From Sphingobacterium thalpophilum (GTDB lineage: Bacteria > Bacteroidota > Bacteroidia > B-17B0 > Aurantibacillaceae), in the NCBI GenBank assembly GCA_943325195.2, contig CALPON020000020.1, forward strand, positions 1 to 32,600: a DNA stretch of 32,600 bases. Direction: 5' to 3'. The translations under genes were made by a program, and so were the position numbers. The notes below the pieces were generated by a model. The model had not been told where the DNA came from, ran no database searches, and saw nothing but the letters and a program-made list of their open reading frames with translations. This document shows, piece after piece, positions 3,914 to 14,434 of this stretch (position 1 is the first letter of the stretch; each line of letters opens with the position of its first letter).

Positions 3914-6280
3914 TTAAAAAAGAATCCGGTACTGTGGAATCACGAAAAAGCGCAGCTGATAATCTGTCTTCACTTGCTGATTGAGAATATCGTACGATTG
4001 TTGAAAGACGTTCAGATGGCGGGTGACATTCTGTATATCAATAGTGAATTCGTGTGTTAATCTTTTACTGTTATACCGGTAGCCGGGTTTCACATCAAGG
4101 CGGAAATAATCAGAGTACTTTTCGCTGAAAGCTCTGTTGACATCAAGTACTTCGCGGTTTTGCGCTATACTGGCAGCCAAGTTGATGGGGGTATAATATT
4201 TACCACCGGAGTAGGTGCCACGTGCATCCAAGCTAATGGCGTGGTGTTGTCCCAGCCGGATCTCTTTTCCGCAAAGCAGATTCAATACATAATTGCCGTT
4301 AAATGCAGTGTTTCGCAGTATCTGATCACTGCCTTTGTATTTACTGTCAAACAGACTGGCGGTCCACAAAAAATAATAGCCTTTACTAAAAAACTTCTCT
4401 AACGTTACCTCCAGGCCGTAATTAAATCCCGTGCCTCGGCTAACGAGGTTGTTCACGTTGGGACTGTTGAAGTCCGCTCCCAGATTTAATGCAGAGAAAT
4501 ACGAGGGATCCGATTTGACCGGTGCACGGTAGATGTACTGATAGTAGACTTCAGATTTAAAACGAAAATTGTTGCCAAGCGCTTGATCATAGGCCATGAC
4601 ACTATGTGCAGCACGCGTAAAATCGAGGCCGCGGTTGGTTTCTCTTCTTAGGCCTCCGCTGCTATCACTTGCAAAATAAATATACATGGGTTGCAGCTGA
4701 CTATGCAGTCCGGCCCCAAAACTAAGCGCCTGTTTATTATTAAAATTATAACGCAGTCCGCAGCGGGGTTCCAGACTTTGTGATCCGTTGAGTCCGAAGT
4801 ATTGATTATGCAAACCTCCTGTAATCATAAAGCGGTCACTAAATTTATGCTGCCATTGCGCAAAGGCACGCAGTAAAGTGCTACTGCCGCTATAATCACG
4901 CAAGGTGACAAAGGTGTTGTTACCGAAATAAAAATCATTACTATCCACAAATAACGTTTGGTATAAATCTAAATACACCCCAGCATTAAAAAAGTCACGT
5001 GCACTGAATTTTCGGTTGTAGATGGAATTTACCGAGTACTTGATGTTTCGCGTGGTTTGCCGGTACTCTGGTTTTAAATTTTTAAAGGTGTGAAAGCTGG
5101 TGTCTATGCGATCGGCCTGAATAAGGTTGATGTTCGCACTGAGACCGACATTGGTTTTTAGATAGGCATTGTTTTTAAAGAGATAAGTGTGTGTCAAGCC
5201 CGTAGCGCCGACATTGGAGCGGAAATAAGTGTCTCTCGCACTAATGCCGAAGAGATTTTGCCCCGCTTTTTTATCACTCTCCAGCAAAGCCACATAACTT
5301 AAACCACCGATGCCCCACCATGAGAATTTGCCTGCTTTTTTTGTGATGAAATCCGTTTTGAAGGTCAGATCCTGATATTGCGGAATCGCTGCGCCGGTTC
5401 CGAAATCAATGTTGAGTGCGTTAAAGACACTGAGGGTAGAGTAACGGTAATTAATCAGGAAGCTGGCATTTTTCCCCTTTCTAAAGGGCCCTTCTGCGCC
5501 CAATTCAAAACCATTAAATCCAACCTGGGCTAGGAACTCTCTTTTATCTCTGTTGCCTTGTCGCATCTTCAAGTCAAATACGCCGGAGGTGGCATTGCCA
5601 TAATCTGCTGCAAAAGCACCCGTCATAAAATCTGAATTTTCGAGGGTGTTGTTATTGAGAATACTGATGGGACCGCCTGTGGATCCAGCATTTCCGAAAT
5701 GATTGGGATTAGGAATGTCCAATCCGTTCAAGCGCCAAAGAATACCGGTTGGGGAATTTCCACGGATAATAATATCATTGCGTGAATCATTGGTGCCGCT
5801 GACCCCAGCAAAATTTGCGGCCATACGAGCTGGATCATTTCTGCTTCCTGCATAACGCGCCGCTTCTTCAGCACTGAAGACACGTGCACTCACAGTGCTC
5901 ATTTTATTATTGGTTTTTGTTTTATCCTGCTCACCGGTGATGACAACTTCTTCTGCCTGAATCACACTTTCTTCCAACTCTATATTGAGTATGGCTTCTT
6001 TACCGGCATTGAGAATAACGCTGACTGTTTTCTCCCGATAACCAAGGTACTGAAAACGAATTTGCAGCCGTCCCAATGGCACCTTTTGTAAGCGGAACTG
6101 CCCGTCTGCATCGGTGATGACCCCAATGACAGGTGTAATGCCTTCCACCTGCACAGCCACACCCGGCAAAGCCGATTGACTTTGCTTATCCACCACGCTC
6201 CCTTTAATGGTTTGGGTGAGGGATTGACTCAGTAGGTTGCTGCTAAAAGCCAGCAGAAAGAGGAAGCTGAAAGTGCGCAT
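3914..6280 (-). CDS. TonB-dependent outer-membrane receptor with N-terminal CarboxypepD_reg-like domain
   Basis: The protein has 788 residues. A signal peptide (1-18) is followed by a carboxypeptidase-regulatory-like domain at about 22-105 (GSVVDKQSQSALPGVAV ... DADGQFRLQKVPLG). The plug domain lies at about 115-245 and includes NDIIIRGNSPTGILWRLNGL and DYGNATSGVFD. The remainder is an aromatic-rich beta-barrel ending in a terminal Phe, as expected for outer-membrane assembly. Such receptors import a ligand across the outer membrane using TonB energy. The ligand cannot be told from sequence. No SusD partner is encoded next to it, so it is not a standard SusCD pair. The ATG directly follows the TGA of the upstream SDR gene, so the two are co-transcribed. 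Confidence 0.92.
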   Translation of the reverse strand: MRTFSFLFLLAFSSNLLSQSLTQTIKGSVVDKQSQSALPGVAVQVEGITPVIGVITDADGQFRLQKVPLGRLQIRFQYLGYREKTVSVILNAGKEAILNIELEESVIQAEEVVITGEQDKTKTNNKMSTVSARVFSAEEAARYAGSRNDPARMAANFAGVSGTNDSRNDIIIRGNSPTGILWRLNGLDIPNPNHFGNAGSTGGPISILNNNTLENSDFMTGAFAADYGNATSGVFDLKMRQGNRDKREFLAQVGFNGFELGAEGPFRKGKNASFLINYRYSTLSVFNALNIDFGTGAAIPQYQDLTFKTDFITKKAGKFSWWGIGGLSYVALLESDKKAGQNLFGISARDTYFRSNVGATGLTHTYLFKNNAYLKTNVGLSANINLIQADRIDTSFHTFKNLKPEYRQTTRNIKYSVNSIYNRKFSARDFFNAGVYLDLYQTLFVDSNDFYFGNNTFVTLRDYSGSSTLLRAFAQWQHKFSDRFMITGGLHNQYFGLNGSQSLEPRCGLRYNFNNKQALSFGAGLHSQLQPMYIYFASDSSGGLRRETNRGLDFTRAAHSVMAYDQALGNNFRFKSEVYYQYIYRAPVKSDPSYFSALNLGADFNSPNVNNLVSRGTGFNYGLEVTLEKFFSKGYYFLWTASLFDSKYKGSDQILRNTAFNGNYVLNLLCGKEIRLGQHHAISLDARGTYSGGKYYTPINLAASIAQNREVLDVNRAFSEKYSDYFRLDVKPGYRYNSKRLTHEFTIDIQNVTRHLNVFQQSYDILNQQVKTDYQLRFFVIPQYRILF

Positions 6281-6997: not shown

Positions 6998-7005
6998 CGA
7001 AGATA
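6998..7005 (-). promoter_or_regulatory. Putative -7 box of the SDR-TonB operon
   Basis: The minus strand reads TATCTTCG, 18 nt upstream of the ATG at 6979. It differs from TAnnTTTG only by C for T in the seventh position, the same variant seen upstream of the SWIM gene and gmd in this window. Confidence 0.35.
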
Positions 7006-7014
7006 CTTTATTAA

Positions 7015-7608
7015 ATGAAAGCTCCGATGAGGAAACACCGTCTTTTATTCTCTCTCCTGTTCCTGCTAAGTCTGTCCATTAACGCTCAGGTGGATGAAGT
7101 GTATACCGGAAGTGCGGACCCTCTGCCCAAAAAAGAAAAACACTTTATGCTAGATGAGAAATGGCGGGAGAATCTGGTCTGGGGTGGAAATTTTCAGTGC
7201 TGGTTCGGAAATCCGACCTATATCTACCTTTCACCGGGACTGGGATATACTTTTTTTGAACATCTTCAGTTGGGACTGGGTTTAATATACAACCACACCA
7301 GTTATCAGACCCGCGGCACGTTATATAAACAAAATATTTACGGGGGTCATTCTTATGTCCGCTATTTGTTCGCGGAAAATCTGTTTCTGCAATTGCAGTT
7401 TGATAAATTAAAGCAACCAGATTTATTTTCAATCGATCCCAATGCCAAGCGCTGGGTGAATTATATGGTCGGTGGTTTTGGACTGCGCCAGCCTATGGGA
7501 GAGAAACTGGCCCTGAGTACCTCTATTCTTTATAATTTCCGTCGGGACCCTTTATCCATTTATCCCGGTGGTTTTATTATTCAATTCGGCGTTGTTGGTC
7601 AGTTCTGA
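7015..7608 (+). CDS. Small outer-membrane beta-barrel protein, unknown function
   Basis: The protein has 197 residues. The ATG at 7015 is used here. A second ATG at 7024 gives a more compact signal peptide (MRKHRLLFSLLFLLSLSINAQ) and may be the real start. After cleavage the protein shows repeated alternating hydrophobic/aromatic strands (YIYLSPGLGYTFF, LQLGLGLIYNHTSYQ, SYVRYLFAENLFLQLQF, GGFIIQFGVVGQF) and ends in Phe, as in 8-stranded outer-membrane barrels of about 170-200 residues. No enzymatic motif is visible. Its stop codon shares the TGATCA palindrome with the stop of the convergent protease gene, with no intergenic base. Confidence 0.8.
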   Translation: MKAPMRKHRLLFSLLFLLSLSINAQVDEVYTGSADPLPKKEKHFMLDEKWRENLVWGGNFQCWFGNPTYIYLSPGLGYTFFEHLQLGLGLIYNHTSYQTRGTLYKQNIYGGHSYVRYLFAENLFLQLQFDKLKQPDLFSIDPNAKRWVNYMVGGFGLRQPMGEKLALSTSILYNFRRDPLSIYPGGFIIQFGVVGQF

Positions 7609-9315
7609 TCAGAATTTTTTATTGGGATTAAAAGGCTTGGAAGTCGGCTGAATTGTGCTTAGCAGCGATTTTACTGCCGCAGGGTCTTTGGCCAGCTTAA
7701 GGGCTTCTGCTAAGTCCTCATCATCCCGCAGAGCGTGTTCAATCCTTCCACTCTGGAAATAATAGCGACTGGCAATTTCTTCTTCCAAATACGAAAGAAT
7801 GACTTTTTTGTGTTTACTCAGATCATCTTTTTTATTTTCCTGCATCTTCTTCACCAGCGCAGCGTACTCGGCGTTTAAGGCATCAAAATACTTTTCATCT
7901 TGTGCATTCTTTTTCAGCATTTCCAGATCCGCTTCGCTTCTGGTTTTGTAACTGTAGTCTTTATCGGACAGCCATTTTGTAAAATCCTCATAATCGGCAT
8001 CGCTCAGATGAAATTCACGCACTGCTGCAATAGTCTTGTGGCGCAAGGTATAAGCAGTTGCATAATTAAAGATGTGGTATTTGGAGATAAGGGCCATCAG
8101 AATATTTTCAAATTTTTGATCTTCTGTTTTTAGATCAGGCATTACACCGGCCCCATCGTATACAATGCGGCCGCCTTTCGTTTTAAAAGCGGTAATCAAA
8201 CTGTCCGGCACTTTTTCCACGCGCCCTTCTAGGTCCTTCGTGCTGTAATCCAGTGCCTGCACACAGCGGCCGCTGGGAATGTAATATTTGGCAACCGTGT
8301 ATTTGATTTTGGCATTGTAAACGAGGTCTTTGGTTTGCTGTACTAGGCCTTTTCCGTAGGTTCGTTTTCCAATTATGACCGCACGATCTAAGTCCTGTAA
8401 GGCGCCGCTTACAATTTCAGAGGCACTGGCACTATTTTCGTCCACCAGCACCAGCAGCGGTGTTTGAAGATCAATGGGCGTATTGACCGAGAGATAGGTT
8501 TTATCCCAGTCTGCCACCTTTCCTTTTGTGAAAACAATTTCCTGCCCTTTCTCCACGAAAAAATTAACGATGTTTACCGCTTCAATAAGCAATCCCCCGA
8601 GGTTCCCCCGAAGGTCCAGTACCAGACTAGTGCAGCCTTTTGCTTTTAAGGCCAGGAGCGCATCCCGGACTTCGCTGCTGCAGTTTTCGGTGAAGGAGGT
8701 CAGCTTAATATAGCCCGTTTCTGTATTTGGAAGTAGGCCACTATAGGGCACTGCCCGGGCTCGTATTTCCTCTCGCGTGAGGTTGAGTTCAGTCGGTAGA
8801 CTTTCGCCTGCTTTAATAACTTTAAGTTTCACGGCTGTACCCGCCTGTCCTTTGAGCAGACTGCTGATTTCATCGCTGCGTTTCTTTTCCACGTTGATGT
8901 TGTTAACTCCCACGATTTGATCACCGGCGCGAATCCCTGCTTTAAAAGCGGCAAAGCCTTCATAGGGCTCAGCAATAATAATTTTACCGTTTATGTCATT
9001 CACCGCTGCACCAATACCGCCGTACTCGCCAGTGGTCATGTACCGGTAATCTTCAATGTCATTTTCGGTGTAATACACCGTGTAGGGGTCAAGACTGCTG
9101 AGCATAGCGTCAATTCCCGTTTTCATCAACTGCCCCGGTTTGGTGCCATCTACATAACCGACGTTTAACTCGCGGTAGACGGAATAAAAAATATCGAGGT
9201 TTTTACTTATTTCAAAGTAATCCGGTGTCAGGGTAAAGCCAGTCACCAGAGTCGAAATCACCAGAAAAATGCCGGCCCGACGTTTATTTTTGTCAAAAAA
9301 CTGCTTAAAATTCAT
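7609..9315 (-). CDS. S41-family C-terminal processing peptidase with PDZ domain
   Basis: ATG at 9315 gives 568 residues. An in-frame TTG one codon upstream is less likely, because a strong GGAGGG lies 8 nt before the ATG. A membrane or signal segment at about 14-30 sends the protein to the periplasm. A PDZ domain at about 95-175 (EYGGIGAAV ... AGIRAGDQIVGVNN) precedes the S41 core. That core contains SASASEI with the inferred nucleophile S297 and GKRTYGKGLVQ with general base K322, at the same 25-residue spacing as in E. coli Prc (S430/K455). A helical region of about 180 residues follows. Such proteases trim C-termini or degrade periplasmic proteins. The gene is divergent from queA and convergent with the barrel gene. 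Confidence 0.93.
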   Translation of the reverse strand: MNFKQFFDKNKRRAGIFLVISTLVTGFTLTPDYFEISKNLDIFYSVYRELNVGYVDGTKPGQLMKTGIDAMLSSLDPYTVYYTENDIEDYRYMTTGEYGGIGAAVNDINGKIIIAEPYEGFAAFKAGIRAGDQIVGVNNINVEKKRSDEISSLLKGQAGTAVKLKVIKAGESLPTELNLTREEIRARAVPYSGLLPNTETGYIKLTSFTENCSSEVRDALLALKAKGCTSLVLDLRGNLGGLLIEAVNIVNFFVEKGQEIVFTKGKVADWDKTYLSVNTPIDLQTPLLVLVDENSASASEIVSGALQDLDRAVIIGKRTYGKGLVQQTKDLVYNAKIKYTVAKYYIPSGRCVQALDYSTKDLEGRVEKVPDSLITAFKTKGGRIVYDGAGVMPDLKTEDQKFENILMALISKYHIFNYATAYTLRHKTIAAVREFHLSDADYEDFTKWLSDKDYSYKTRSEADLEMLKKNAQDEKYFDALNAEYAALVKKMQENKKDDLSKHKKVILSYLEEEIASRYYFQSGRIEHALRDDEDLAEALKLAKDPAAVKSLLSTIQPTSKPFNPNKKF

Positions 9316-9323
9316 CAAAAAAT

Positions 9324-9329
9324 CCCTCC
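9324..9329 (-). promoter_or_regulatory. Strong Shine-Dalgarno GGAGGG of the S41 protease gene
   Basis: The minus strand carries GGAGGG with an 8-nt spacer before the ATG at 9315. This is unusual here, as nearly all other genes in the window lack a recognisable Shine-Dalgarno. It fixes the start at ATG rather than the adjacent TTG. Confidence 0.65.
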
Positions 9330-9427
9330 AAAGGCTTAAAAGTAAGCAAAATTGCTGCGTTTTGTGATTTACGAATGGGGTTTATCTTTTTTTATCGTCC
9401 GATAGTAAAAATATGCACTTTTTTTCT

Positions 9428-9435
9428 TAATTTTG
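9428..9435 (+). promoter_or_regulatory. Putative -7 box upstream of queA
   Basis: TAATTTTG matches TAnnTTTG exactly and is oriented toward queA. It would start a leader of about 120 nt that contains a small ORF and a terminator-like hairpin. No good -33 TTG was found at the expected distance. Confidence 0.4.
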
Positions 9436-9460
9436 CAGGCCGAATTAATCCCGTAAGATT

Positions 9461-9556
9461 ATGATTCACTGCTGCTTTCAGTTCAGAAATAGAACTGAAT
9501 TTTTTAACCGGCTTGGTTTCTTTTTTGCAGTTTCATTTCTTCCGGAATATTTATAA
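9461..9556 (+). CDS. Possible 31-codon leader ORF upstream of queA
   Basis: An ATG at 9461 opens a 31-codon frame closing with TAA at 9554-9556, five bases before the queA ATG. The frame contains the terminator-like hairpin. The peptide begins [15 protein letters not shown] and is rich in Phe (8 of 31), with no family match that I recognise. It could be a leader peptide or a chance ORF. Confidence 0.2.
9477..9505 (+). terminator. Terminator-like hairpin in the queA leader (possible attenuator)
   Basis: TTCAGTTC (9477-9484) and GAACTGAA (9492-9499) form a perfect 8-bp stem with a 7-nt loop, followed at once by six T (9500-9505). This is an intrinsic-terminator shape, though the stem is AT-rich. 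It lies downstream of the putative promoter and 56 nt before queA, so it would act within the leader rather than at the end of a gene. Confidence 0.5.
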
Positions 9557-9561
9557 AGACT

Positions 9562-10611
9562 ATGAAATTATCAATGTTTAAGTTCAATCTGCCAAAAGAA
9601 CTATTGGCAGAGCATCCCGCTAAGAATCGCGAAGACGCCAGAATGATGGTGCTTGAACGATCAACTGGCAAAATTTATCACAAGAAATTTAAGGATGTGA
9701 TTAATTATTTCGATGATGGGGACGTCATGATTCTGAATGATACCAAGGTTTTTCCTGCCCGTATGTACGGAAACAAGGAAAAAACAGGTGCCAAGATTGA
9801 AGTTTTTTTACTTCGTGAACTGAATGCTGAAAGTCGTCTCTGGGACGTACTTGTTGATCCTGCTCGTAAAATTCGTATTGGCAATAAACTCTATTTTGGA
9901 GAGGATGACAGTCTGGTAGCAGAGGTTATTGATAATACCACTTCTCGCGGACGGACGCTTCGTTTTTTATATGATGGCAGCTACGAAGAGTTTCGTAAAG
10001 TGTTATATGATCTCGGTGAGACCCCCCTTCCAAAATACATCAAGCGGGCTGCAGAGCCTGAAGATACGGAACGTTACCAAACGGTTTTCGCAAAAAATGA
10101 AGGCGCCGTGGCGGCACCTACTGCCGGTCTGCACTTCAGCCGCGAGTTATTAAAACGTCTCGAAATTAAAGGGGTTCAGTTTGCGCCTCTGACACTTCAT
10201 ATTGGTCTGGGAACCTTTCGCACTGTTGAGGTGGAAGATTTAACCAAACACAAAACGGAAAGTGAAGAAGTCCTCATCTCCAGTGATACCTGTAAAATTG
10301 TAAACGGGGCAAAGGATAGAAAACGCCGTGTGTGCGCAGTTGGGACCACCGTTATGCGGGCGATCGAGACCAGCGTGTCTACCACCGGTCATCTAAATCC
10401 CTATGTCGGATGGACGAATAAATTTATTTTTCCTCCTTATGATTTTAGTATCGCTAATTGCATGATTACTAATTTCCACATGCCAGAAAGCACTTTACTG
10501 ATGATGGTGAGTGCCTTCGGAGGCTACGATTTAGTTACCAAAGCGTATAAAGAGGCGATCAAAGAAAAGTACCGCTTCTACTCCTACGGGGATGTGATGC
10601 TGATTATTTAA
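9562..10611 (+). CDS. queA: S-adenosylmethionine:tRNA ribosyltransferase-isomerase QueA
   Basis: The protein has 349 residues, the normal QueA length. QueA transfers and isomerises the ribosyl group of S-adenosylmethionine onto 7-aminomethyl-7-deazaguanine in tRNA, giving epoxyqueuosine at the wobble position. Family landmarks are the N-terminal [22 protein letters not shown] region, [48 protein letters not shown] and FIFPPYDF, in the usual order. The first ATG (9562) is used; one at 9574 is also possible. No other queuosine gene is in the window. The long leader with hairpin is unusual compared with the short 5' regions of other genes here. An SRPBCC gene follows after 46 bp. Confidence 0.97.
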
Positions 10612-10657
10612 TTTATCTTTTTTCTGGCATAGGATTTTCTTCTTTTTCCAAAACGGA

Positions 10658-11107
10658 ATGAGCAGAACTTCTAACCTTTGCACGCATGTGATGATTGGGG
10701 TACCGCGAGAACTCGTGTGGTTGGCCCTTACCTCGCCTGAAATTATAAAACGCTATCTACCTTCGAGCATCTTCTCAACAAGCTGGAGGCCGGGTGAACC
10801 GATTGTTCGCACCGGTAGCCAGGGTGGACCTACTTACCGTGATAAAGGCATCGTCCTGAAATATAATCCGCCCCGCGAACTCAGTTATTCCTATTGGCCT
10901 TCCCGTAGCGGCCTAGCCGACCTTCCTGAAAATTATCAGCAGCTCACTTTTTTATTAGAGGAACAAGGCGAGGTAACGTATCTTAAGTGCAGCATTGAGA
11001 ATGCAGGAGAGGAAGAAATGAGCGCAATTGTCATGCAGGACTGGAAAATGAATTTGGCACGTCTAAAGATCCTTCTTGAAGACAGCACCGAGTTATCCGC
11101 CTATTAA
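10658..11107 (+). CDS. SRPBCC (START-like, AHSA1-type) domain protein
   Basis: This 149-residue cytoplasmic protein consists of a single SRPBCC/AHSA1-like domain. It has the helix-grip opening (VPRELVWLALTSPEIIKRYLP), the central F/W-S-x-W-x-x-G-x-x-I strand (STSWRPGEPIVRTG), then a DKGIVLKYNPPRELSYSYWP segment and a C-terminal amphipathic helix (MQDWKMNLARLKILLED). Such proteins bind small hydrophobic ligands or act in stress responses. The ligand is unknown. It follows queA at 46 bp on the same strand and may be co-transcribed. Its stop overlaps that of the convergent acetyltransferase gene by 4 bp (TTAA supplies both stops). Confidence 0.87.
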   Translation: MSRTSNLCTHVMIGVPRELVWLALTSPEIIKRYLPSSIFSTSWRPGEPIVRTGSQGGPTYRDKGIVLKYNPPRELSYSYWPSRSGLADLPENYQQLTFLLEEQGEVTYLKCSIENAGEEEMSAIVMQDWKMNLARLKILLEDSTELSAY

Positions 11108-11622
11108 CTCAGACGATAAAGTGACAGCACTGGCTGGTCGCCACTGAGGCGGATATGCTGCTGATAGTAAAAGCCGAGTTTCTGAAGTAAGGTAATCGCC
11201 CGTGCATTAATGGGCAAGGTGATCGCATCAATAATTTCCAATCCCTCTTTCTTAAACCAATGGTCCAACACGAGCCCAGCTGCTTCTTTTGCAAAGCCCT
11301 GCCCTGTATACGCGGGTAAAAATGAGAAGCCTAAATCTGCATACTGCAAACCCTCCCTTCGTATGAGTCCGCAAATGCCCATCGGGCTACCCGACTCTTT
11401 ATCTTCCACGCAATACAAACCAAATCCATGGTGGTAATAACTTGCGAGAGGTCCAGTCAGTAGGTACAATTTGGCATCCTCTAGTGTATGCACATCTCGG
11501 TTACCAATAAATTCAAGCCATCCCGGAGTATTGACCAATGTCAGAATGAATTCCGCATCCTGAATCTGCAGGTACCTTAAACGAATTCTGCTGCCAATTA
11601 ACTCTTTGTCCTGCTCCTTCAT
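11104..11622 (-). CDS. GNAT-family N-acetyltransferase (RimJ/RimL type)
   Basis: The protein has 172 residues. The opening IGSRIRLRYLQIQDAEFILTLVNTPGWLEFIG is typical of RimJ/RimL-like GNATs. A beta-strand with ADLGFSFLPAYTGQGFAKEAAGLVLDHWF carries the acetyl-CoA pyrophosphate-binding Q/R-x-x-G-x-G/A motif (YTGQGFAKEA). The ending INARAITLLQKLGFYYQQHIRL is the usual motif B. The acceptor (protein N-terminus, drug or other amine) is unknown. It is flanked convergently by the SRPBCC gene and divergently by the SWIM gene, 58 bp between starts. Unlinked function is likely. Confidence 0.92.
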   Translation of the reverse strand: MKEQDKELIGSRIRLRYLQIQDAEFILTLVNTPGWLEFIGNRDVHTLEDAKLYLLTGPLASYYHHGFGLYCVEDKESGSPMGICGLIRREGLQYADLGFSFLPAYTGQGFAKEAAGLVLDHWFKKEGLEIIDAITLPINARAITLLQKLGFYYQQHIRLSGDQPVLSLYRLS

Positions 11623-11666
11623 ACAAGGCGGTAAATTTAGAAATAAATTGCCAGCTCTGCTTTTTG

Positions 11667-11674
11667 TAACTTCG
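11667..11674 (+). promoter_or_regulatory. Putative -7 box of the SWIM gene
   Basis: TAACTTCG, the TAnnTTCG variant, ends 6 nt before the ATG at 11681. A TTG at 11648-11650 sits 16 nt upstream, slightly short for a -33 element. The position supports the ATG at 11681 over the upstream TTG at 11606 and implies a nearly leaderless message. Confidence 0.35.
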
Positions 11675-11680
11675 CTGACG

Positions 11681-13090
11681 ATGGCGCTAGATCTCCAGCA
11701 TTTTGAGTTTGATTTTTCTTCTTCCGTTTTAACGAAAGCCTGGCGGACTTATCTTCAGCTTCGATGGACCCGACTGCCCTTGGAGGGCAAACAGTCGCAG
11801 TTCCTCGTAAACGGCGAGCGCGTCAGTTTTCTGCGAGAGAAAAAAAAGATTCGCGAACTACACTGTAGTTGTAAAAGGGGTCCACTCTGCGTGCACGCTG
11901 CAGTGGCTCTTTTTGCTGCTGAAAATCTTCAGATAGAGCCGGTCCCCGCGGCGGAGAAGAACTTGCGTCGTCCAGTCTCCCGTCTGCACGCCGCCATTCA
12001 ACGGCAATTAAAAGGGGCAAAACGGCCGGCTCAACTTCCTGCATTCAAAACACTTGATTTCACGGGCATTCTAGCCTATTATCTGCACTTACCTACATTT
12101 GTTCAGGACGAAGCGGAGTTCAGGGAATGGGATGCTAAATTTCAAAAGGAAATCAGAACCTATATACGGGAGGGGCTGGACAGCATGTCTATCAAAGATT
12201 TGTTTGTGGCCTGTCTTCTAGCGCTTCGACCCACTAAAAACCATAGCGGCCGATCTTGGTCCTTTCTTATTGCTTTGTTGGTTCATTATCCTGTTGCACC
12301 GGATGATATAAAAACACTACAGCGCTCGCTGGGCCGTCCTTCTCCTGTGGATTTTCATTCAGAGGGTCCCGACTACCGCCTTATCAGTGCCTTGCAACTG
12401 CAGCTAGCAGGCGATTTGCGGGCAAATCGGAGGGCGACCTCAGCCATGGAAGCTCTGGCCCATGCGCATGCGTGGATTTGCCGAGGGTTTTTTAAAAAAG
12501 GAATGCGCTTGCTCAAAAATTATGTGTCTGATGAAAATGCCGCTCGTCGCATGCCGGAGCCTGCGCTGTTGGCTTTTGGTCTAGAGCAGAGTGTACAGGC
12601 GCAGGATACTGGCTACGAAGTTTTTTTTATCGCGATGCAATTACGTTATGCCTTGCAGGTCAATCCTTCTGCCTTGCATCGTCTGCGTGAGTTGCTGGGT
12701 GCCTCTGCCTTTCGCGAACTTGTTTTAACCCTCGCACAAGAAACGCCGGCCGACTGGCTTGAAAAGAAAAAGGACCTTCTTTTGGCGGCCGGGGACCGCA
12801 AGGCCTTACAGCTGTTTTTGAAACAGCCACTGCGCTTTAATTCCATTCTTCAGGTATTGACCGCAATTTTACCGCTAGTACCTGATAGGTGCAGTGACTT
12901 GCTAGTCAAAGCCATACCAGAGGCTTTGCAGGAGTCTGCCCGTCGCGAATGGCAAGAGCACATACTGTCCCAGTGTCAGCCTTACCTCAGCCGTCTGCCG
13001 TCTGCTCAAAGAGCGGAAATTGTAAAGCGCGTGATTGCCGCCATGGGCGAGCGTTCACATGTGTCGGACTGGTTTAAGGAAATGATTTGA
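11681..13090 (+). CDS. SWIM zinc-finger domain protein
   Basis: ATG at 11681 gives about 469 residues. The frame is open back to a TTG at 11606, but that start overlaps the divergent gene and adds no recognisable sequence. A SWIM zinc finger lies at about residues 60-77, with CSC, then CVH (C-x-C-xn-C-x-H), after a FLVNGERVSF strand. SWIM domains bind zinc and often nucleic acid or proteins and commonly accompany SNF2-type helicases. The remaining ~390 residues are helical, Leu/Ala/Arg-rich, resemble a repeat solenoid and contain no helicase motif. No SNF2 gene is adjacent. The function is unknown. Confidence 0.8.
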   Translation: MALDLQHFEFDFSSSVLTKAWRTYLQLRWTRLPLEGKQSQFLVNGERVSFLREKKKIRELHCSCKRGPLCVHAAVALFAAENLQIEPVPAAEKNLRRPVSRLHAAIQRQLKGAKRPAQLPAFKTLDFTGILAYYLHLPTFVQDEAEFREWDAKFQKEIRTYIREGLDSMSIKDLFVACLLALRPTKNHSGRSWSFLIALLVHYPVAPDDIKTLQRSLGRPSPVDFHSEGPDYRLISALQLQLAGDLRANRRATSAMEALAHAHAWICRGFFKKGMRLLKNYVSDENAARRMPEPALLAFGLEQSVQAQDTGYEVFFIAMQLRYALQVNPSALHRLRELLGASAFRELVLTLAQETPADWLEKKKDLLLAAGDRKALQLFLKQPLRFNSILQVLTAILPLVPDRCSDLLVKAIPEALQESARREWQEHILSQCQPYLSRLPSAQRAEIVKRVIAAMGERSHVSDWFKEMI

Positions 13091-13091
13091 C

Positions 13092-13412
13092 TTAGTCTTC
13101 CAACATAAAAACAGCTTCACCAAACTCATTAATGGCTTTGTTGTTTTTTTGTTCCCTGGCCAGCGTCAGTCCCGTTTTATAGAACGTGAGCGCTTCAGAG
13201 GGTCGATCTAGTTTTTCAAACAACTGGCCCAGCTGGTAATAAGCAGCGAGGTAATTGGAATCAATAGAGAGTACAATCCTGAACTGCGACTCGGCATCGG
13301 CCGGGGCAATAAGGTCTTTGGCATATTCTAATCCGAGTGCATAGTTTAGAAACAAATCTCCCGGTTCCTGTTCCAACATGGCCACAAGCTGCCCTGTGCG
13401 CTCTGTCTGCAT
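13092..13412 (-). CDS. Small tetratricopeptide-repeat protein
   Basis: This 106-residue soluble protein has about two TPR units. The pattern YALGLEYAK ... AESQFRIVLSIDSNYLAAYYQLGQLFEKLDRPSEALTFYKTGLTLA has the alternating small/aromatic residues (A-x-Y, L-G, A-P-like) of TPR helices. It has no signal peptide, so it is probably cytoplasmic. Its ATG overlaps the pheS stop by one base (TAATG), so it is co-translated as the last gene of the rlmD-pheS operon. TPRs mediate protein contacts. The partner is unknown and the link with pheS may only reflect shared transcription. Confidence 0.85.
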   Translation of the reverse strand: MQTERTGQLVAMLEQEPGDLFLNYALGLEYAKDLIAPADAESQFRIVLSIDSNYLAAYYQLGQLFEKLDRPSEALTFYKTGLTLAREQKNNKAINEFGEAVFMLED

Positions 13413-14434
13413 TAGGATGCGGTAAATTGCTTAATAAAACGAATGTCGTTTTCGAAGAACAAACGAATGTCTTTCACCTGATATTTAAGCATGGTGATGC
13501 GTTCAATGCCCATTCCGAAAGCAAAGCCTTTATATTTTTTTTCATCAATGCCGCAGTTAATCAAAACTTGCGGATCGACCATGCCACAGCCTAAAATTTC
13601 AACCCAGCCGGTGTGCTTGCAAACGTTACATCCAGCGCCTTTACAGATGGTGCAGGAGATGTCCATTTCAGCACTGGGCTCAGTGAAGGGGAAGTAGCTG
13701 GGACGCAGACGTATTTTTGTTTCTGCACCGAACATCTCTCGTGAGAAATGCAGGAGTGTGGCTTTGAGATCAGCGAAAGAAACTTTCTCATCAATGTATA
13801 AACCTTCCACCTGATGAAACTGGCAGTGTGCCCGCGCACTGATGGCTTCGTTGCGGTAAACGCGGCCTGGCGAAATAGTGCGGATCGGCGGCTTGGAATT
13901 TTGCATGATGTGTACCTGAACGCTGCTGGTCTGGGTCCGAAGGACCATGTCCGGATTTTGGCGCACGTAAAATGTATCCTGCATGTCACGTGCAGGATGG
14001 TTCTCAGGCGTGTTGAGGGCCGTAAAATTATGCCAATCATCTTCAATTTCATTCCCATCACTCACCGTGAAGCCCAGTTTTGAAAAAATACTGATGATTT
14101 CACGACGAACTAAACTCAAGGGGTGCCGTCCTCCTGCTATTGAAGCAGGATAAGCGGGGATGCTCAGGTCGATTTCCGGTTTGTTTTTTTCTTTATCGGA
14201 TTCAAATCGCTCTTTTAAATCATTGATTTTGTCCTGCGCGCGTGTACGCAAATCATTCAGTTTCTGGCCGACTTCCTTTTTCAGTTCACCGGGAACGGTC
14301 CTGAAGTCTTCGAATAAAGCACTGATTTCACCTTTCTTGCTCAGCCAACGAATACGGTATTCTTCCACCTCTTCTTTACTCTGAGCAGCGAAATGTTCTA
14401 CTTCTTCTAATAATCTGTGTATACGGTCTAACAT
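13412..14434 (-). CDS. pheS: Phenylalanyl-tRNA synthetase alpha subunit
   Basis: ATG at 14434 gives 340 residues (MLDRIHRLLEEVEHF), the normal PheS length. The longer open frame upstream would run into rlmD. The N-terminal coiled-coil arm (about 1-90) is followed by the class II catalytic core. Within it are HPLSLVRREIISIFSKLGF, DMQDTFYV, RTQTSSVQVHIMQ (motif 2 region), RAHCQFHQVEGLYID, a Cys-rich CTICKGAGCNVCKHTGWVEILGCGMV segment and the final FAFGMGIERITML (motif 3). PheS pairs with PheT to charge tRNA-Phe. pheT is not in the window, as is common in this phylum. It lies 13 nt after rlmD. Confidence 0.97.
   Translation of the reverse strand: MLDRIHRLLEEVEHFAAQSKEEVEEYRIRWLSKKGEISALFEDFRTVPGELKKEVGQKLNDLRTRAQDKINDLKERFESDKEKNKPEIDLSIPAYPASIAGGRHPLSLVRREIISIFSKLGFTVSDGNEIEDDWHNFTALNTPENHPARDMQDTFYVRQNPDMVLRTQTSSVQVHIMQNSKPPIRTISPGRVYRNEAISARAHCQFHQVEGLYIDEKVSFADLKATLLHFSREMFGAETKIRLRPSYFPFTEPSAEMDISCTICKGAGCNVCKHTGWVEILGCGMVDPQVLINCGIDEKKYKGFAFGMGIERITMLKYQVKDIRLFFENDIRFIKQFTAS

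Follow-up and report, generated by a model that had tools for sequence, protein, structure and literature searches.

A conserved hairpin in the queA leader of a Bacteroidota family, and arrays of similar hairpins that may serve as decoys

The queA locus and its leader

The window analysed here is a stretch of 32,600 nucleotides, contig C20 of an assembly of 2.9 Mb that, with a T9SS sorting domain among its family matches, has the look of Bacteroidota. It contains queA, identified by NCBIfam model NF001140 with 454 bits against a cutoff of 324, and the features of its leader are collected in Table 1. We designate as P0 the small hairpin behind the promoter box, as P1 a long-range helix, and as P2 a second, larger hairpin. 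A perfect inverted repeat, TATCG-TC-CGATA, lies at 9393-9404, 5' of the queA promoter box, and is a possible operator in the intergenic space common to queA and the divergent peptidase gene. A second QueA-like protein of about one-third identity, matched in two pieces, is encoded at G000:C10:25647-26828 of the same genome and has counterparts in most genomes of the genus.

Table 1. Features around queA in the window, with the two hairpin arrays of the same genome (G000, contig named)
Feature	Position	Strand	Remarks
C-terminal processing peptidase (S41)	7609-9318	-	divergent from queA; TIGR00225 271 bits, cutoff 218.6
-7 promoter box TAATTTTG	9428-9435	+	letters read in the window; Bacteroidota-type TAnnTTTG
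P0 hairpin	9446-9461	+	stem TAATC/GATTA (9446-9450 with 9457-9461), loop CCGTAA (9451-9456)
Near-invariant 14-mer AATCCCGTAAGATT	9447-9460	+	single copy in its own genome
P1, 5' strand	9451-9464	+	CCG 9451-9453, AAGA 9455-9458, ATGA 9461-9464; minimum-energy fold; competes with P0
31-codon Phe-rich ORF	9461-9556	+	ATG 9461-9463, TAA 9554-9556; not conserved
P2 hairpin (hairpin of the original prediction)	9477-9499	+	8-bp stem TTCAGTTC (9477-9484) / GAACTGAA (9492-9499), loop AGAAATA
P2 loop AGAAAT	9485-9490	+	possible pseudoknot with ATTTCT 9535-9540, incompatible with P1 in this species
TTTTTT after P2	9500-9505	+	not conserved
P1, 3' strand	9533-9545	+	TCAT 9533-9536, TCTT 9538-9541, CGG 9543-9545; 17-29 nt 5' of queA start
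queA, tRNA preQ1(34) S-adenosylmethionine ribosyltransferase-isomerase	9562-10611	+	NF001140 / TIGR00113 above cutoff
Array L379, four hairpins	G000:C36:8000-21171, ~8863-8971	-	behind TAnnTTTA box
Array L380, two hairpins	G000:C169, ~5147-5188	-	behind TAnnTTTA box

The leader was compared with 88 P0-anchored leaders, with one miss (L043, an outgroup locus with no P0) and with L248 dropped as a duplicate. Because some genomes occur twice among the 88, the statistics are given for 45 non-redundant long leaders and eight short ones; two family loci without P0 (L196 and L204) were excluded from the structure statistics.

The original prediction read this leader as a promoter followed by an attenuator. 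Its landmarks, namely the promoter box, the ATG, the stem with six T residues, and the queA start, are all in place, and the letters of the hairpin are perfect in this species, but the attenuator meaning did not survive the comparison. Any hairpin followed by a T-run is present in just four of the 45 long leaders, the stem is AT-rich, and a consensus scan of positions 7000-14000 found seven terminator-like sites, against 8.7 +/- 3.4 in shuffled sequences, which is the level of chance. We therefore hold it to be highly improbable that the hairpin at 9477-9499 and its T6 act as an attenuator or terminator. The 31-codon ORF proposed as a leader feature is likewise not conserved: 36 of the 53 leaders (45 long and eight short) have an ATG behind P0, and the ORFs that it opens differ. 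A leader-peptide attenuator was rejected on the same ground, as the peptides behind the P0 ATG differ among the 53 leaders.

Other parts of the original prediction fared better. The box at 9428-9435 has the form TAnnTTTG, the Bacteroidota -7 promoter consensus. It stands beyond chance, as 36 of 44 distinct leaders have a similar box 9-14 nt 5' of the P0 core; the spacing is 26-39 nt in four of the 44, and 74 and 190 nt in two, and in two the search pattern found no box. A sigma-70 style promoter scan proved uninformative in this phylum. The statement that there is no preQ1 riboswitch signature also holds, because the Rfam 15 covariance models gave nothing at gathering score in the whole window and nothing above the chance level in 9300-9700, where the best E value was 0.84 and no preQ1 class was present among five matches with E<=10. 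The broader view of the queA leader as a structured, conserved, and probably regulatory RNA was borne out by the comparison with relatives, and its centre proved to be a sequence that had gone unmentioned, the strongly conserved AATCCCGTAAGATT, which lies a short way 5' of the previously proposed hairpin.

Conservation of P0 before queA

QueA was matched in 39 of 40 genomes of the genus and in 83 of the 87 genomes of the family, which is the whole order in the genome set used. Seventy-nine of the 83 matches are full-length, and the removal of two loci without upstream sequence (L025 and L197) leaves 77 testable genomes, including G463, whose QueA match has an in-frame stop. The genomes outside the 77 have only QueA fragments or paralogues of about one-third identity (G462, G465, G466, and G476), or no match (G034, G434, G439, and G456). 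P0 is present 5' of queA in 75 of the 77, at QueA identities down to 75%. The exact 14-mer is found in 69 of the 87 family genomes and lies 5' of queA in 68 of them (in G034, it stands at a contig end, without queA), and seven more genomes have a variant P0 before queA, two with a variant stem and five with a variant loop. The loops of the 75 family hairpins are CCGTAA in 70 genomes and CTGTAA in five (G440, G441, G442, G444, and G457, from three genera). P0 is missing before queA in two family genomes, G472 and G438 (rows L196 and L204), and G472 nevertheless has a hairpin array.

The departures in the stem are still paired, namely GATC/GATT (L195; G025) and AATC/GGTT (L198; G443), and L039-L042, which are related loci, have AT instead of TA as the fifth pair. 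In nearly all queA leaders, the element can be written as AAUC-CYGUAA-GAUU. Over its 49 distinct family versions, the second pair is UA in 48 and UG in one, the fourth is AU in 48 and GU in one, and the fifth is UA in 47 and unpaired in two. It should be mentioned that earlier counts of the queA stem were conditioned on AATC or GATC; an unconditioned recount agrees with them.

In a sample of the phylum (395 genomes), the 14-mer occurs in 11 of the 394 genomes besides its own, and QueA is found in none of the 14-mer loci of these 11 genomes (about 3 kb each). Our criterion for P0 picked out one of the 68 outgroup queA loci (L044-L111), namely L084. By eye, the outgroup locus L062 has CCCGTAAG with a 3-bp stem (AGC/GCT) directly before the queA ATG, possibly a remote P0 with a compensatory change, and L098 has CCGTAA with weak flanks.

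The place of P0 within the leader varies. In the eight short leaders (six of the 75 family genomes plus L041 and L042), it stands 0-6 nt before the start codon. It is also kept where queA follows atpG: an upstream ORF ending in GAEAL.. was seen in 17 rows, representing 15 distinct loci, 14 of which have P0, and the one such ORF that was checked, in L035, is atpG by TIGR01146. Because P0 is kept behind atpG, and because its distance from the -7 box varies (9-39 nt where the box is near), it belongs to the RNA and not to the promoter. The same facts bear on the alternative that AATC-N6-GATT is a DNA operator, a site for a transcription factor, as might be thought of an inverted repeat that most leaders have shortly downstream of the promoter box. 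Against this stand the non-palindromic centre, whose conservation equals that of the arms, the varying distance from the promoter, and the persistence of the element behind atpG and at the ATG; moreover, the stems of the hairpin arrays vary with their pairing kept. An operator is, in our judgement, scarcely credible.

Alternative folds of the leader

In the long leaders, the sequence GUAAGA, which consists of the end of the P0 loop and the first bases of the stem, is complementary to a UCUUAC-like element that mostly lies 18-31 nt before the start codon (first leader set). The exact TCTTAC occurs 3' of P0 in 14 of the 45 non-redundant long leaders, against 1.04 in shuffled sequences, and the copy in the window, TCTTCCGG, has one mismatch. 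When P1 is defined as the pairing of at least four of the six GUAAGA bases with the last 45 nt, it appears in the minimum-energy fold of 33 of the 45 long leaders, compared with 7.5 in shuffles; P0 appears in the best fold of seven, and 22.9 would be expected from shuffles. In the window itself, the minimum-energy fold pairs CCG-AAGA-AUGA with UCAU-UCUU-CGG. With P1 over-represented and P0 under-represented among these computed folds, the long leaders seem to be built to hide P0. The hairpin is weak, too: in L041, L115, and L117, where P0 is the sole predicted helix, the energies of the whole leaders are -0.7, -3.0, and -3.9 kcal/mol.

The original prediction had proposed a search for compensatory changes in the stem at 9477-9499, and such changes are present among 28 genus leaders chosen by hand: the stem is CAGUUC/GAACUG here, and its equivalents in genus leaders are CAGUAU/AUACUG, CAGUAC/GUACUG, GGAUCG/CGAUCU, and GGAUUG/CAAUCC. 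Judged from these alignments, P2 is a second stem, at the level of the genus. Its loop often pairs with a downstream sequence, for example TTGAGTC/GACTCAA, TTTAAGTCG/CGACTTAAG, and GTTGAGCA/TGCTCAAT, with AGAAAT/ATTTCT in the window. Such pairings of 7-9 bp occur in L006, L009, L032, L033, L016, L018, L020-L023, and L029, that is, in some but not all of the 28 leaders.

These folds invite a comparison with the preQ1 riboswitches of classes I-III, which, like the element described here, are leader RNAs of queuosine genes; the account of their folds in PMC11625349 includes HLout pseudoknots for the preQ1-II and preQ1-III types, and the possible pairing of a loop with a 3' element is shared. The leader could thus be a new riboswitch, in which the P0 loop and the downstream UCUUAC form a pseudoknot that binds preQ1, Q, or SAM in the manner of preQ1-II or -III. 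In support of this, queA is a Q gene, and in its leader a variable hairpin lies enclosed between the P0 loop and the distal 3' element with which that loop pairs, a layout reminiscent of the HLout pseudoknots. On the contrary, the eight short leaders keep the core hairpin alone and have no room for a 3' element before the start codon, the letters of the 3' element are poorly conserved (the 14 exact copies among 45), bare hairpins recur in the arrays, and no Rfam riboswitch matches the leader. We consider a riboswitch improbable. It may be added that queA is not known as a usual target of preQ1 riboswitches.

Hairpin arrays and a candidate decoy system

Two genomes have additional copies of the 14-mer, and these led to hairpins that have the same loop and are arranged in tandem. 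The arrays consist of 2-12 hairpins, mostly 20-60 nt apart, and of 100 loops counted at 23 loci, 82 are CCGUAA and nine are CUGUAA, the same C/U variation as in the P0 of queA. Stems of at least four pairs flank 77 of 90 clustered loops, compared with 25 of 716 control loops. For array hairpins closed by a C-G pair (80 distinct ones), pairing at stem positions 2-4 holds in 233 of 240 cells, whereas permutation of the 3' letters gave a mean of 175 and a maximum of 187 (2000 permutations). These two tests are the less biased ones, as a set of 57 array hairpins and the 44 used for covariation (93% paired; covariation 0.761 vs 0.316, in agreement with the permutation result) had been chosen for at least four pairs, so that the counts on them are biased.

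Pairs of CCCGTAAG at distances of 16-46 nt gave 56 matches in 14 of the 87 family genomes, and the control gave, by our count, two matches in two genomes. By itself, the 10-mer CCCCGTAAGG is no more frequent in the genus than its backward reading (103 matches each, by our count); the signal of the arrays is their clustering and their stems, not the abundance of the 10-mer. Across the 395 genomes of the phylum sample, the pattern was no commoner than its backward control (10 genomes against 28, by our count); beyond the family, therefore, weight is given solely to hairpins checked by eye. Rows of covarying hairpins were recognised by eye in G072 and in the GC-rich genomes G174, G281, and G379, and in the latter three 42 of 42 cells are paired, against a permutation mean of 28.

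The arrays also have promoter-like and terminator-like ends. A TAnnTTTG or TAnnTTTA box lies within 100 nt upstream of 13 of 15 family arrays, compared with 131 of 900 control intervals, and a terminator is within reach of 10 of 20 arrays, compared with 14 of 340. For neither of the two arrays in the window's own genome did the scan detect a terminator; at L380, one with a longer loop was seen by eye. In the arrays L394, L396, and L398, the last hairpin is itself the terminator. The arrays, to judge by such boundaries, look like free-standing units, and eight array loci had no match in Rfam 15 at E<=0.1.

A census was made in six genomes with a hairpin model, R1, built from 44 rows that include the P0 of the window and many array hairpins. 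The first look gave 356-810 candidates per genome, of which 150 went on to scoring, so that weak copies may have been missed. Among the 150 scored candidates of the window's own genome, matches with E<=1 are confined to the two arrays (four hairpins on C36 and two on C169) and the queA leader, where the match to P0 spans 9443-9464 with an E value of 0.022, P0 itself being a training row. In G001, a genome of one contig, the 150 scored candidates yielded one array and queA; further single matches on the same basis number one in G002, one in G029, and three in G452. The only single copy, or the main one, is at queA, which suggests a queuosine-specific factor.

The main rival to recognition by a factor is a structural reading, in which C(CCGUAA)G, through unusual stability or resistance to nucleases, is a favoured loop in the phylum and in some phages and is used in terminators and RNA ends; P0 would merely protect the 5' end of the queA mRNA, and the arrays would be RNA-stabilising repeats. 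The same loop closes terminators, in the three arrays mentioned above and in viral contigs, as would be expected of a loop that is just stable. Nine viral contigs (L399-L407) have two successive hairpins with CCGTAA loops, of which the latter precedes a T-rich stretch; the search pattern contained 22 fixed bases, so that by estimate chance matches are unlikely, and in L405, the one contig checked, the pair lies behind the gene for the major head protein (PHROG 138). In most leaders, P0 also follows the -7 box closely, as would suit an RNA end. On the other hand, P0 is weak by the energies given above, and the A/U letters of its stem are nearly fixed. In most long leaders, another predicted stem opens P0, the short leaders have it at the start codon, and behind atpG it need not lie at an RNA 5' end. 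For these reasons we think the structural reading unlikely, if not negligibly so.

Weak as it is, the hairpin is near-invariant, occurs at one gene and in decoy-like arrays, and is masked by a competing stem; together these properties speak for a trans-acting factor that recognises it. We infer that a factor binds P0, that its binding may lower queA expression, and that the arrays act as decoys; to the whole reading, P0 as a factor-binding hairpin that controls queA together with CsrB-like decoy arrays, we would give an even chance of being correct. The queA leader would then be a conserved cis-regulatory RNA element, with P0 at its core: a weak CYGUAA-loop hairpin recognised by the factor. 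With P0 free and bound, translation of queA would be reduced. In short leaders, P0 would act on or beside the start codon, and in long leaders it would compete with P1, which would sequester its loop. The array RNAs, with their many copies of the hairpin, would act on the factor as CsrB does on CsrA, by titration. Among the points against this proposal are the two family genomes that have queA but no P0, one of them with an array, and the finding that, by the strict pair pattern, arrays occur in only 14 of the 87 family genomes. Bacteroidota generally lack Shine-Dalgarno sequences (PMC3155529).

The decoy RNAs CsrB and RsmZ titrate CsrA and RsmA, which recognise a GGA loop. The present system shares with CsrA/CsrB a hairpin-loop motif at the start of an mRNA and multi-hairpin units that resemble RNA genes, with a promoter-like box and often a terminator, known here from sequence. 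It differs in its loop, CYGUAA instead of GGA, and in its single recognised mRNA target, queA, compared with the many of CsrA. Given this loop, the arrays are not members of the CsrB/RsmZ decoys and only look able to work in a similar way; of that family, they have the multi-hairpin layout and nothing more. In the Bacteroides RbpB/FopS system, an RNA-binding protein of Bacteroidota is likewise combined with multicopy sRNAs (PMC11697453), but FopS, as described there, has a single-stranded 5' stretch and one terminator hairpin, and no hairpin array.

The factor might even be an enzyme of the pathway itself. Some mRNAs contain anticodon-like elements by which enzymes that bind tRNA regulate themselves, an example being a yeast aminoacyl-tRNA synthetase at a putative anticodon mimic (PMC6542539). 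The anticodon loop of the organism's own tRNA-Tyr is C-U-G-U-A-A-A, similar to the C-Y-G-U-A-A of P0. Since tRNA-Tyr is in the substrate class of TGT and QueA, one can imagine that QueA (or TGT) binds CYGUAA hairpins as mimics of this loop and represses its own mRNA via P0, with array RNAs, which may carry the modification, titrating the enzyme or reporting its activity. An anticodon-arm mimic would present U33-G34-U35 in a loop of seven nucleotides, whereas the loop here has six, and C stands for U33 in most copies, the Y of YGU being C in 70 of the 75 family P0 loops and U in five. This variant of the factor-binding reading seems to us a long shot.

To our knowledge, few post-transcriptional regulators have been described in Bacteroidota, and we found no report of the P0/CYGUAA-array element in the open-licence literature of PMC. 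The conserved queA hairpin and the decoy-like arrays, which Rfam does not match, offer a bait for a new RNA-binding regulator, one that the bait may tie to the control of queuosine. The arrays occur also in the inspected GC-rich relatives of the phylum sample.

The neighbours of the arrays mostly differ between genomes, according to a comparison of N-termini and of all proteins against all at 20 loci. The pairs L383/L392, L385/L393, and L386/L387 have common flanks, L382/L393 and L386/L393 share one protein, and no other Q gene was recognised by eye among the neighbours at the 20 loci. The arrays of L385/L393 and L386/L387 lie 74-224 nt 5' of homologous genes, in the same orientation, for small proteins that by eye are secreted or outer-membrane-like. 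Family searches with three neighbouring proteins identified atpA and atpG at an array of G012 and trmD at an array of G452. The former array (L384, G012:C54, about 5784-6169) has 12 hairpins and stands behind atpA-atpG, the site that in other genomes is occupied by queA with P0; it may have grown from a queA leader.
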